The notes under the pieces were generated by a model. It ran no database searches and was not told the origin of the DNA. It saw only the letters and a list, made by a program, of their open reading frames with translations. Position numbers and translations under genes: made by a program. From Candidatus Gastranaerophilales bacterium (GTDB taxonomy: Bacteria; Cyanobacteriota; Vampirovibrionia; Gastranaerophilales; Gastranaerophilaceae): a DNA stretch of 38,315 nt. The stretch spans positions 1 through 38,315 of the forward strand of contig CALVGY010000003.1 in assembly GCA_944327215.1 (NCBI GenBank). Reading direction: 5' to 3'. This document shows positions 7,350-26,148 of this stretch, piece by piece (positions within the stretch are counted from its first letter, which is position 1; every line of letters begins with the position of its first letter).

Positions 7350-7859
7350 TTATTTAAAGTTTATTTCATTCAAAATTTTCTTAGCTATTTCAATCATTTG
7401 GGGGTATTTAGTATAAATATATCCCATTTCTATCATTTCTTTAACACAATTATCAAAATTGTCTATCCTATTTAATACTTTATATATAAGTGAATAAAAT
7501 CCTGTTCTGTCAGCACCTAATTTACAATGATGAAGACATTTGCCATTACGAGATTTAATTTCATCCATATAATTAAGAAATTGAAAAGTTTTTTCTTTTT
7601 CTGGGTTGCTAGAAACAGATGGTATGTTATAATAATTTATATTTAATTTTTTTGCAACATCTGCTTCTATAAAGTCTGTGTCAGGAGATTTCAGTGTTCT
7701 ATAATTAATAATATCTGTAATATGTTCATTATTTTTCAAAAATAAAATTTCATCTTTTTCAGGTTGTGCAGATCTTAAAAGATAATTATCAATTTTTTTA
7801 TAATTTTTAGGATAATTATATGCTGTAAAGTTAATTTTATTTATTTTAAGAATTTTCAA
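7350..7859 (-). CDS. Dual-specificity / tyrosine phosphatase-like protein
   Basis: A 169-residue protein with the cysteine-phosphatase P-loop HCKLGADRTG: Cys112, five residues, Arg118, then Thr-Gly. This C-x5-R loop holds the phosphocysteine intermediate in dual-specificity and tyrosine phosphatases. Upstream, YLLRSAQPEKDEILFL resembles the start of bacterial DSP/DUF442-type domains. The substrate may be a phosphoprotein, inositol phosphate or nucleotide and cannot be assigned. The first 15 residues contain INFTAYN, a short motif similar to N-termini of other small proteins here. The start codon lies inside the end of miaB (14-base overlap), with AAGGAG as ribosome site, so expression is coupled to miaB. 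Confidence 0.75.
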   Translation of the reverse strand: MKILKINKINFTAYNYPKNYKKIDNYLLRSAQPEKDEILFLKNNEHITDIINYRTLKSPDTDFIEADVAKKLNINYYNIPSVSSNPEKEKTFQFLNYMDEIKSRNGKCLHHCKLGADRTGFYSLIYKVLNRIDNFDNCVKEMIEMGYIYTKYPQMIEIAKKILNEINFK

Positions 7860-16318: not shown

Positions 16319-16361
16319 GTAATTAATGAATTCTATTAATGTAACAAAATGTAAATATAAA

Positions 16362-16390
16362 TTTAAAATAGTCTTAAACTCCCTTATACT
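16362..16390 (+). promoter_or_regulatory. Candidate promoter just before the TAGGA repeat
   Basis: TTTAAA (16362-16367), a 17-base spacer and TATACT (16385-16390). The predicted transcription start falls at about 16397, the first base of the tandem repeat, so the repeat would form the very 5' end of the mRNA of the 16517 gene. Confidence 0.4.
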
Positions 16391-16396
16391 ACCTCT

Positions 16397-16447
16397 TAGG
16401 ATAGGATAGGATAGGATAGGATAGGATAGGATAGGATAGGATAGGAT
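16397..16447. repeat. Pentanucleotide tandem repeat, ten copies of TAGGA
   Basis: The unit TAGGA is repeated ten times without error, plus one extra T (51 bases). Each unit carries AGGA, the core of the ribosome site used by genes here (the 16517 gene itself uses AAAGGAT). All three plus-strand frames contain TAG stops; all minus-strand frames are open. Five-base units are prone to slippage, so copy number may vary between cells and change the 5' leader of the downstream gene. Confidence 0.97.
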
Positions 16448-16516
16448 GCCTTTATAGCAATTTTTTCTCCTTTTTTGTTTTTATAAAAATATAGAAGAAA
16501 AGAAAGGATATTTATT

Positions 16517-16861
16517 ATGGGAATTACAGTTAAAGATTTATTTCAATATGATCCGAATTTTGATCCGGCGAAGATTCGTCGTTTAACCGGAAAGTCAGAT
16601 TATAAAAAAACAGATTCTGTTGATTTAGCCAGATTAGCCGCATTGAATGATAATGATTTATCAATTTTTGTAGCAAGAAAAGATAAAACAGTGTTAAATT
16701 ATATCAATAATGATAATGTTCGTGCCCAAGTTGCAGATGCATCTCATGTTAAAAATGTCAAAAGTGAAAAAACAAATAAAAATGAACAAAATAATTCCAA
16801 TATTGGGGCTATTCCTATGGACAAAAGTATTTTTGATATAAAAGAAAAAGAAGCTGTATAG
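16517..16861 (+). CDS. Unknown small soluble protein downstream of the TAGGA repeat
   Basis: A 114-residue protein that I do not recognise. It begins MGITVKDLFQYDPNFDPAKI and has a structured, mixed-charge N-terminal part up to about residue 72, then an Asn/Lys-rich, probably disordered stretch (about 73-95) and a short tail. No signal peptide or membrane segment is seen. AAAGGAT lies eight bases before the ATG. The gene sits 69 bases after the pentanucleotide repeat and ten bases before the next small gene, so the pair forms a likely operon whose level could depend on the repeat. Confidence 0.6.
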   Translation: MGITVKDLFQYDPNFDPAKIRRLTGKSDYKKTDSVDLARLAALNDNDLSIFVARKDKTVLNYINNDNVRAQVADASHVKNVKSEKTNKNEQNNSNIGAIPMDKSIFDIKEKEAV

Positions 16862-16871
16862 GAGATAATCT

Positions 16872-17108
16872 TTGATAAAAAATATTCAACAAAATAATAA
16901 TATCTCAAAACAAGACTATAATGAAGCTCAAGTATATTTAAAAAATCAGATTAAACAACCTAAAAATTTAACTGATTTGAAGCGCAATGCAAATATAAAA
17001 TTGCGTCAAGTACAACTTGCAAGAAATCAAGGTGATATAGAAATAGCTGCGATACTTGCTTATGAGTATCAGCAAATTATTCAAGATATAAATAATTATT
17101 ACAAATAA
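16872..17108 (+). CDS. Unknown small helical protein (TTG start)
   Basis: A 78-residue protein rich in Gln, Asn, Lys and Ile with an all-helical look (for example QVQLARNQGDIEIAAILAYEYQQII). I do not recognise the family. The start is a TTG with GGAG seven bases upstream; no in-frame ATG exists near it. It follows the 16517 gene by ten bases and ends in a terminator, so both are one transcript. Nothing suggests a function beyond protein-protein interaction, which is only a guess. Confidence 0.55.
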   Translation: MIKNIQQNNNISKQDYNEAQVYLKNQIKQPKNLTDLKRNANIKLRQVQLARNQGDIEIAAILAYEYQQIIQDINNYYK

Positions 17109-25050: not shown

Positions 25051-25461
25051 TTATTCTGAAATAGATTTTAATTCAGTTCTTAATTGAGTAATTTTTGAAT
25101 TGTAGTATTCAAGCCAAGTAAAGTTTTCATCTTTTAGAGAAGGTTCTGCTAATGCCCTTATTCTTTTTTTGTCTATTTCGTCTAATTCATCTTGGATTTC
25201 TTTGCTTCTTATTGCATTTTGAATTTTAAGTTGTTTTGTTTTTGCTTCTTCGTCATTCAATTGTTTCCATATTCCGTTTTCTTTTGTATATTTTGAACTG
25301 TCTGCTGCAATTACGTTATTATTGAACAAGATTATTATTTTTCCCTTATTTTGTTCTTCTAATAAATCAGCCCAATATTCATCAGTAATTTCTATAGCAT
25401 TTTCAAAATTGTCTTCGTAAAACCCATAGTCTTGATTATTTTTTGTTCCGTAATATTTCAT
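25051..25461 (-). CDS. Tail-fibre accessory (assembly chaperone-like) protein
   Basis: A 136-residue protein. The N-terminal part (YGTKNNQDYGFYEDNFENAI, then ITDEYWADLLEEQNKGK) and the C-terminal helical part (EIDKKRIRALAEPS, then YYNSKITQLRTEL) follow the layout of phage tail-fibre assembly or hinge-associated proteins, where a short beta domain is joined to an Arg-containing helix pair. This is a pattern-level match only. GGAGGG precedes the ATG. It lies nine bases downstream of the tail-fibre gene, as expected for such a pair. Confidence 0.55.
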   Translation of the reverse strand: MKYYGTKNNQDYGFYEDNFENAIEITDEYWADLLEEQNKGKIIILFNNNVIAADSSKYTKENGIWKQLNDEEAKTKQLKIQNAIRSKEIQDELDEIDKKRIRALAEPSLKDENFTWLEYYNSKITQLRTELKSISE

Positions 25462-25470
25462 TTTTCCCTC

Positions 25471-26148
25471 CTAGTATCCGATAGCTATCCAGTTCATGTT
25501 GTAAAATAAACCGCCACTTCCTATATCAAAGCCTGTTAGTGATTGGTGGCTGAATCCGGTATCACTTCTTGTGGTATCCATTGTCCAGCCGTTTTTAGAA
25601 AAGATAGGACAGGCTAAAGTAGTGAATGCTATAGGATAAGTTATTACTGATCCTACATATACTCCCCATTCAATAAGAAGCCCATTCGGGAATTTTATAT
25701 ATCCTTGATTGGTTTTACTTACTTTTCCGGTTACAGAATTCCAAGTCCCCCAAGCTGAATTTGTATAAGTTCTTGTATAAATTTCTGGGTTGTCTCCGTC
25801 ACAAAACCATATTTGTTTAATTTCAGATTCTTCTTTGCCTGTTACAACAAGTACTCCGGAAGTCCCTGTAGGAATATTCACAGGGGTATAAAGTGTTGAA
25901 AATATGTAAGTCCCTTTAGTTTTGTAATCATTTAAATCTGTATCTGATTCTGTAACTGTGAATTCTGTTATTAGTTCTGTTTTATCAGCTTTAGTTTCAA
26001 GTATTTCATTTACATCAGAAATATTTGTATCACAGGATGATTTGTTTGCATCAATTTTATCTGCAAGTGCTATAAAGTTTGCATTGACTTCATTAGCCTT
26101 AGCTTTGGTACCGGGGATAAAAGAATACGGTATCATTGAATTAGTCAT
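25471..26148 (-). CDS. Phage-type tail-fibre protein
   Basis: A 225-residue protein. The N-terminus (SFIPGTKAKANEVNANFIALADKI) is the characteristic start of many short tail-fibre proteins. A coiled segment (about 30-65) leads to a middle domain resembling the pyocin-knob fold (YIFSTLYTPVNIPTG, then YTRTYTNSAWGTWNSV). The C-terminal part (GYIKFPNGLLIEWGVYVG) resembles the tail-fibre gp53-type receptor-binding domain. GAAAGGAAA precedes the ATG. No other phage gene lies nearby, so this is an isolated receptor-binding module or a prophage remnant. Confidence 0.75.
   Translation of the reverse strand: MTNSMIPYSFIPGTKAKANEVNANFIALADKIDANKSSCDTNISDVNEILETKADKTELITEFTVTESDTDLNDYKTKGTYIFSTLYTPVNIPTGTSGVLVVTGKEESEIKQIWFCDGDNPEIYTRTYTNSAWGTWNSVTGKVSKTNQGYIKFPNGLLIEWGVYVGSVITYPIAFTTLACPIFSKNGWTMDTTRSDTGFSHQSLTGFDIGSGGLFYNMNWIAIGY

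Follow-up and report, generated by a model that had tools for sequence, protein, structure and literature searches.

The window, a 38,315-nt stretch (positions 1 to 38,315 of contig CALVGY010000003.1) from a Candidatus Gastranaerophilales assembly, carries at 16397..16447 on the forward strand a TAGGA array of 10.2 copies at 100% identity (TRF score 102), with 0 such matches expected by chance in 100 dinucleotide shuffles. Its ten full units (16397-16446) form ten overlapping TANNNT hexamers, -10-like in sequence, at 5-bp spacing. The ten-copy repeat reported in the first-pass annotation is thus a perfect one, and the promoter proposed there, TTTAAA-N17-TATACT, was found where it had been placed: a -35-like TTTAAA (16362..16367, +), whose TTT is nearly invariant across the promoter family described below, is followed by a 17-nt spacer, a TATACT -10 element (16385..16390, +; TATAAT or TATACT in the family) and 6 nt leading to the first TAGGA unit, a distance that supports the claim that the array lies at the predicted transcription start. 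That predicted start (16396-16398, within the discriminator and start region at 16391..16398, +) is placed from the -10 element; by the YR+1Y pattern the family consensus, CTCA followed by TAG, gives C-A-T, and the window has CTCT followed by TAG. Three further elements surround the core promoter: a box of the HLR1 type, associated with the regulator RpaB, which matches the consensus perfectly on the minus strand (16338..16355, AATGTAACAAAATGTAAA); an element within the -35/-10 spacer (16371..16381, +; GTCTTAAACTC here, GGCTGAAACCC as family consensus) that stands out in the information profile; and a conserved leader box directly after the array (16447..16466, +; TGCCTTTATAGCAATTTTTT here, TGCGCCYRTAGCAAYWTTTTT in the family). 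The same assembly holds a second array, of 5 copies, on contig C1 behind the same type of promoter.

The array is followed by two small genes on the forward strand, ORF1 (16517..16861, 114 aa), whose ATG at 16517 lies 70 nt downstream of the array, and ORF2 (16872..17108, 78 aa, TTG start), its conserved partner. Because ORF1 has a Shine-Dalgarno sequence of its own, AAAGGA at 16503..16508 (+), the repeat does not serve as its ribosome site. The two proteins had been called unknown, and neither matched a Pfam or NCBIfam family; ORF1 belongs to an orphan family present in 15 of the 33 genomes of the genus, and its predicted fold (mean pLDDT 75) had no match in the PDB. The pair is kept side by side at the loci of relatives, and the small operon is therefore real.

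Downstream of the family promoters we collected 174 ORFs, which grouped in 80 clusters. In a Pfam scan of ten cluster representatives LysM was the sole domain above cut-off, and EF-hand-like matches fell slightly below it. Judged by eye, these representatives show no signal peptide at the N terminus, and a single hydrophobic stretch rich in glycine occurs in several of them. Short motifs such as PMDKSIFD and DASIFK are common to some of the orphan targets (L313, L227, L010 and the window's ORF1), with a SIF-type match in 7 of the 80 cluster representatives, and other proteins begin with motifs like INFTAY or VSFQG (window positions 7859 and 13789); motifs of both kinds are possibly export or sorting signals. 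Elsewhere in the window, two adjoining minus-strand ORFs at 25051-26148 resemble phage tail fibres by eye, in surroundings that are otherwise chromosomal.

The window array belongs to a promoter family whose members are dispersed over hundreds of unrelated loci in Ca. Gastranaerophilales. Arrays of at least four TAGGA units occur in 20 of the 33 genomes of the genus, and every one examined sits behind the same promoter. A sequence-only promoter profile (R1), with E-values that are approximate owing to a shortened calibration, matched 31 of the 33 genomes with up to 30 sites per genome, and in several genomes about 10-30 family promoters precede orphan proteins, counts that rest on pattern and profile searches. 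Within the family Gastranaerophilaceae the profile found matches in 63 of 117 genomes, spread over 28 of 41 genera; across a class-wide sample of 146 genomes it matched 42, all of them from the window's own family, and no member of the promoter family was seen outside it. The named records that carry the promoter are Candidatus Gastranaerophilales, Ca. Scatousia and records labelled Fusobacterium sp. CAG:439, the last of which look mislabelled. In 1.36 Mb of sequence collected around such sites, and so not as a genome-wide rate, TATA[AC]T stood at the right distance from 167 of 181 distinct arrays of at least four pentamers; on inspection the remaining 14 had the same promoter with a CATAAT-like -10, or were cut by a contig end. 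The assemblies, sampled at one genome per species, are fragmented and broken at arrays: several contigs end inside one (C36, C55 and C62 of genome G005, C30 and C35 of G029), so assemblies probably lose promoter copies and the per-genome counts are too low. In our literature search no paper dealt with this repeat, or with an RpaB regulon of this group, and the pentamer-array promoter is apparently a type not described before.

The published consensus of the HLR1 box is (G/T)TTACA(T/A)(T/A)NN(G/T)TTACA(T/A)(T/A) (PMC11633204), and activating copies lie at -45 to -60 (PMC11633204, PMC9241938). In the family the box, on the minus strand, was perfect in 142 of 249 sites and had one mismatch in 47 more, against a best score of two mismatches in composition shuffles. 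It is mostly fixed 47 nt before the start of the -10, or about -59 to -42 from the predicted transcription start, a position compatible with activation. The larger site sets come from a profile trained on array-bearing promoters, and two sets served as controls for this training bias: among 32 promoters chosen by their array alone the box was perfect in 16 and one base off in 7 (either strand), and HLR1 together with TATAMT, sought in eight genomes with no array or spacer term, returned 52 matches against 1 for the reversed pattern. The window genome has just two PF00486 proteins, one of them an RpaB equivalog (NF045944, 362 bits against a cut-off of 330), in line with the earlier report of RpaB from Melainabacteria genomes, where its role was left open (PMC3787301). 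From these sequence matches, RpaB likely controls the array promoters through the HLR1 box. Next to rpaB in the window genome, on the opposite strand, lies a large recombinase-like gene (L421:1869-3215).

The array goes together with the spacer element. A GAAACCC-type element is conserved in the -35/-10 spacer across the family, and among 30 HLR1 promoters with loci that had been found without using the array, in which the spacer element was judged by eye, an array was present in 20 of the 21 with the element and in 0 of the 9 without it (p = 7e-7). A second conserved HLR1 promoter, TGTAAAGAAATGTAAC...TATATACT (L443, L431, L447, L434 and L427; G000:C46:9937-9992 and relatives), has neither spacer element nor array, and precedes a small gene (MAVANLKKID...) immediately upstream of a nadD-like gene; it constitutes a natural array-free control. 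The promoter family, its architecture, its conservation and the co-occurrence of array and spacer element are direct observations.

Across the arrays the period of 5, the TA that opens each unit and the position stay constant, and the commonest copy number is four. A TANNNT hexamer begins 5-6 nt after the -10 in 264 of 274 distinct sites, most decayed arrays included, compared with 11 of 274 after shuffling; in 198 of 202 sites the first TA follows the -10 after 5 or 6 nt, which is 11-12 bp from start to start, and the period is 5 in 206 of the first 211 sites. The remaining bases vary: the units at the 274 promoters were TAGGA (155), TAGCA (38), TATGA (30), TATGG (15), TATGC (4), TAGAA (3), TATGT (2) and others found once each; a further 24 were not scored as arrays. 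Ten unit types are joined by nine single-base steps, none of which touches the T or A of TA, an outcome with a probability of about 0.01 under equal rates if unit changes are treated as independent, which they are not fully. Interruptions within arrays (16 of 670 internal units) hit the A of TA four times and are too few to show stronger selection on TA than on NNN.

Copy number ranges from 2 to 16, with the window's ten in the upper tail, and the mode is four also where length played no part in the choice of arrays (42 of 94 non-TAGGA arrays). The suggestion that the number of units might differ was borne out at the ORF1 locus, where related species, with one genome each, have 10, 5, 6 and 4 units, and G005, a 93.5%-identical neighbour, has five. 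At ORF1 orthologues in other species TAGCA replaces TAGGA in the same place. Within a genome nearly all arrays share one unit, apart from occasional stable exceptions: G001 and G011 have TAGGA plus one TAGAA array, G029 an additional TATGA array, and G031 TAGCA units plus one TATGG array. The TAGAA promoter is common to the two related species (L210 and L140, at G001:C57 and G011:C2), among TAGGA promoters in both, so a deviant unit can be stable. In all five genomes compared (5/5), the ORF1 promoter is closer to other promoters of its own genome than to its orthologues, which points to concerted evolution by copying, conversion or slippage.

These patterns bear on what the array might do in the transcript. 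The first-pass annotation had read the AGGA of each unit as a ribosome-binding core, a reading left without support by TAGCA, TATGA, TATGG and TATGC units, which stand in the same place at orthologous or paralogous promoters. An anti-Shine-Dalgarno decoy or landing pad was rejected on the same ground, that units at homologous sites lack the AGGA core; a (GG)n G-quadruplex because TAGCA, TATGA and TAGAA arrays have no GG tracts; and stop codons in all frames because TATGC and TATGG units contain none. Nor is the leader an intrinsic terminator: no hairpin of terminator strength was found, and the mean energy before the U-run was similar to that of shuffled sequence (-1.9 against -1.6 kcal/mol). 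Leaders of ten loci, the window's (L003) included, had no match in Rfam.

We suggest, with a probability of roughly 45%, that these are RpaB-type promoters of orphan proteins in which tandem -10-like elements create a sigma-dependent promoter-proximal pause. An RpaB-type regulator bound at HLR1 (about -59 to -42) would bring RNA polymerase to a promoter that combines TATAAT with a weak -35, and the first transcribed bases would then be -10-like TANNNT hexamers, arranged head to tail at 5-bp spacing. These hexamers could recapture sigma region 2 and hold the polymerase in a promoter-proximal pause, which would set the rate or timing of its escape and may allow a factor bound at the spacer element to be loaded. 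The three N bases of each unit would be largely free, and replication slippage and exchange between promoters would homogenise them, so that the unit could differ between species while TA, period and position stay. Sigma capture and pausing are inferred here by analogy with Escherichia coli, where sigma70 distal pauses depend on a canonical -10 that is followed, after a 6-nt spacer, by a -10-like element 11 bp downstream; there the -10-like element holds sigma70, and the resulting pause, 16-20 nt from the start, is a backtracked one (PMC7876045). That geometry, a -10-like hexamer 11-12 bp below the -10, is present in nearly every family site, and the typical hexamers TAGGAT, TAGCAT and TATGAT match TATAAT at 4-5 of 6 positions. 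Against pausing, some units (TAGGT, for example) agree with TATAAT at no more than 3 of 6 positions, and one -10-like element is enough in E. coli, leaving four or more unexplained. A fuller version, in which the tandem pause array, a loading factor bound in the spacer and RpaB together gate a regulon of lineage-specific, possibly exported proteins, with selection on the period and the TA step and not on the sequence, seems to us rather doubtful as a whole.

Other readings share much of this evidence. The array might act in RNA: with (UANNN)n at its 5' terminus, the leader could protect the transcript, help ribosomes to load, or offer a binding site for a protein or a small RNA; the array would stand at the very 5' end of the predicted transcript, and the rest of the leader, TGCGCCYRTAGCAAYWTTTTT and then TTTGTTTTTATAAA, is conserved too. 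However, the unit differs within one genome (the four with exceptions above), which makes a sequence-specific RNA function unlikely, over a third of the collected arrays have no AGGA core, and neither a stable structure nor, at the ten loci, an Rfam match was found; we consider this reading unlikely. Slippage could instead make the array a phase-variable or tuning microsatellite, in which gain and loss of units alter the expression of each promoter and make the target proteins heterogeneous. The perfection of the repeats, the 10, 5, 6 and 4 units at orthologous arrays, the tail of up to 16 units and the presence of some 10-30 such promoters before orphan proteins in several genomes would all fit, but a four-unit mode is short for high slippage rates, an array that lies between the -10 and the ORF, 70 nt from the latter, alters neither the -35/-10 spacing nor a reading frame, and the differences in copy number are between species. 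This makes an expression switch of that kind quite improbable.

The pairing of a -35/-10 element with a -10-like pause sequence, two coupled hallmarks, also recalls antitermination of the Q/AlpA kind, in which a loader at the spacer element would capture the sigma-paused polymerase and later terminators would be ignored. The leader, however, is without an intrinsic terminator, as its folding energies indicate, and no loader protein was identified; antitermination here is very doubtful, and because the leader has no terminator hairpin our preferred reading includes only the pause. Finally, the array could be a by-product, with promoters copied or converted within each genome and the start region gaining functionless repeats by slippage, as the resemblance of ORF1 promoters to those of their own genome and each genome's own dialect of -10 flank and unit might suggest. 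Yet in many genera the arrays hold to one base position and to a constant TA, the HLR1 promoters of the same genomes that lack the spacer element have no array, and orthologous sites switch unit and retain the array, all of which makes a functionless origin highly improbable.

For RpaB in the non-photosynthetic relatives of the cyanobacteria, the promoter family supplies a concrete regulon and a candidate regulator, and a large number of orphan genes in gut bacteria are, by their promoters, probably under common regulation. Its units and copy numbers also form a natural series for asking how tandem -10-like sequences affect early transcription.

Several described systems resemble this architecture in part. 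RpaB-activated HLR1 promoters of cyanobacteria (psaA/B, atpT) have the same perfect direct repeat in an activating position, with RpaB present, but here the hosts are non-photosynthetic gut bacteria, the targets are orphans and the consensus lies on the minus strand relative to transcription; in the literature compared, a spacer element and pentamer array are not reported for the cyanobacterial promoters. Phase-variable simple sequence repeats are likewise perfect, short and tandem, with copy numbers that differ between relatives, whereas the present arrays lie at the start site and not in promoter spacing or a reading frame, have a four-unit mode, and have their unit replaced wholesale between species. 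Loading promoters of the Q/AlpA type (phage late promoters and alpB) combine a -35/-10 element with a -10-like sequence at the start, and in Pseudomonas aeruginosa alpB the binding element lies between -35 and -10 and the pause element at -1 to +5 (PMC9371919); the promoters described here differ in having tandem elements, no terminator in the leader and no known loader protein. A further likeness is to the sigma70-dependent pause elements in the initially transcribed region of lambda pR', of lac and of the E. coli distal G1 pauses, which share the canonical -10, the 5-6 nt spacer and a TANNNT 11-12 bp downstream; here, where the pause is a predicted one, the element usually recurs in at least four tandem copies at 5-bp spacing, and does so throughout a whole promoter family.
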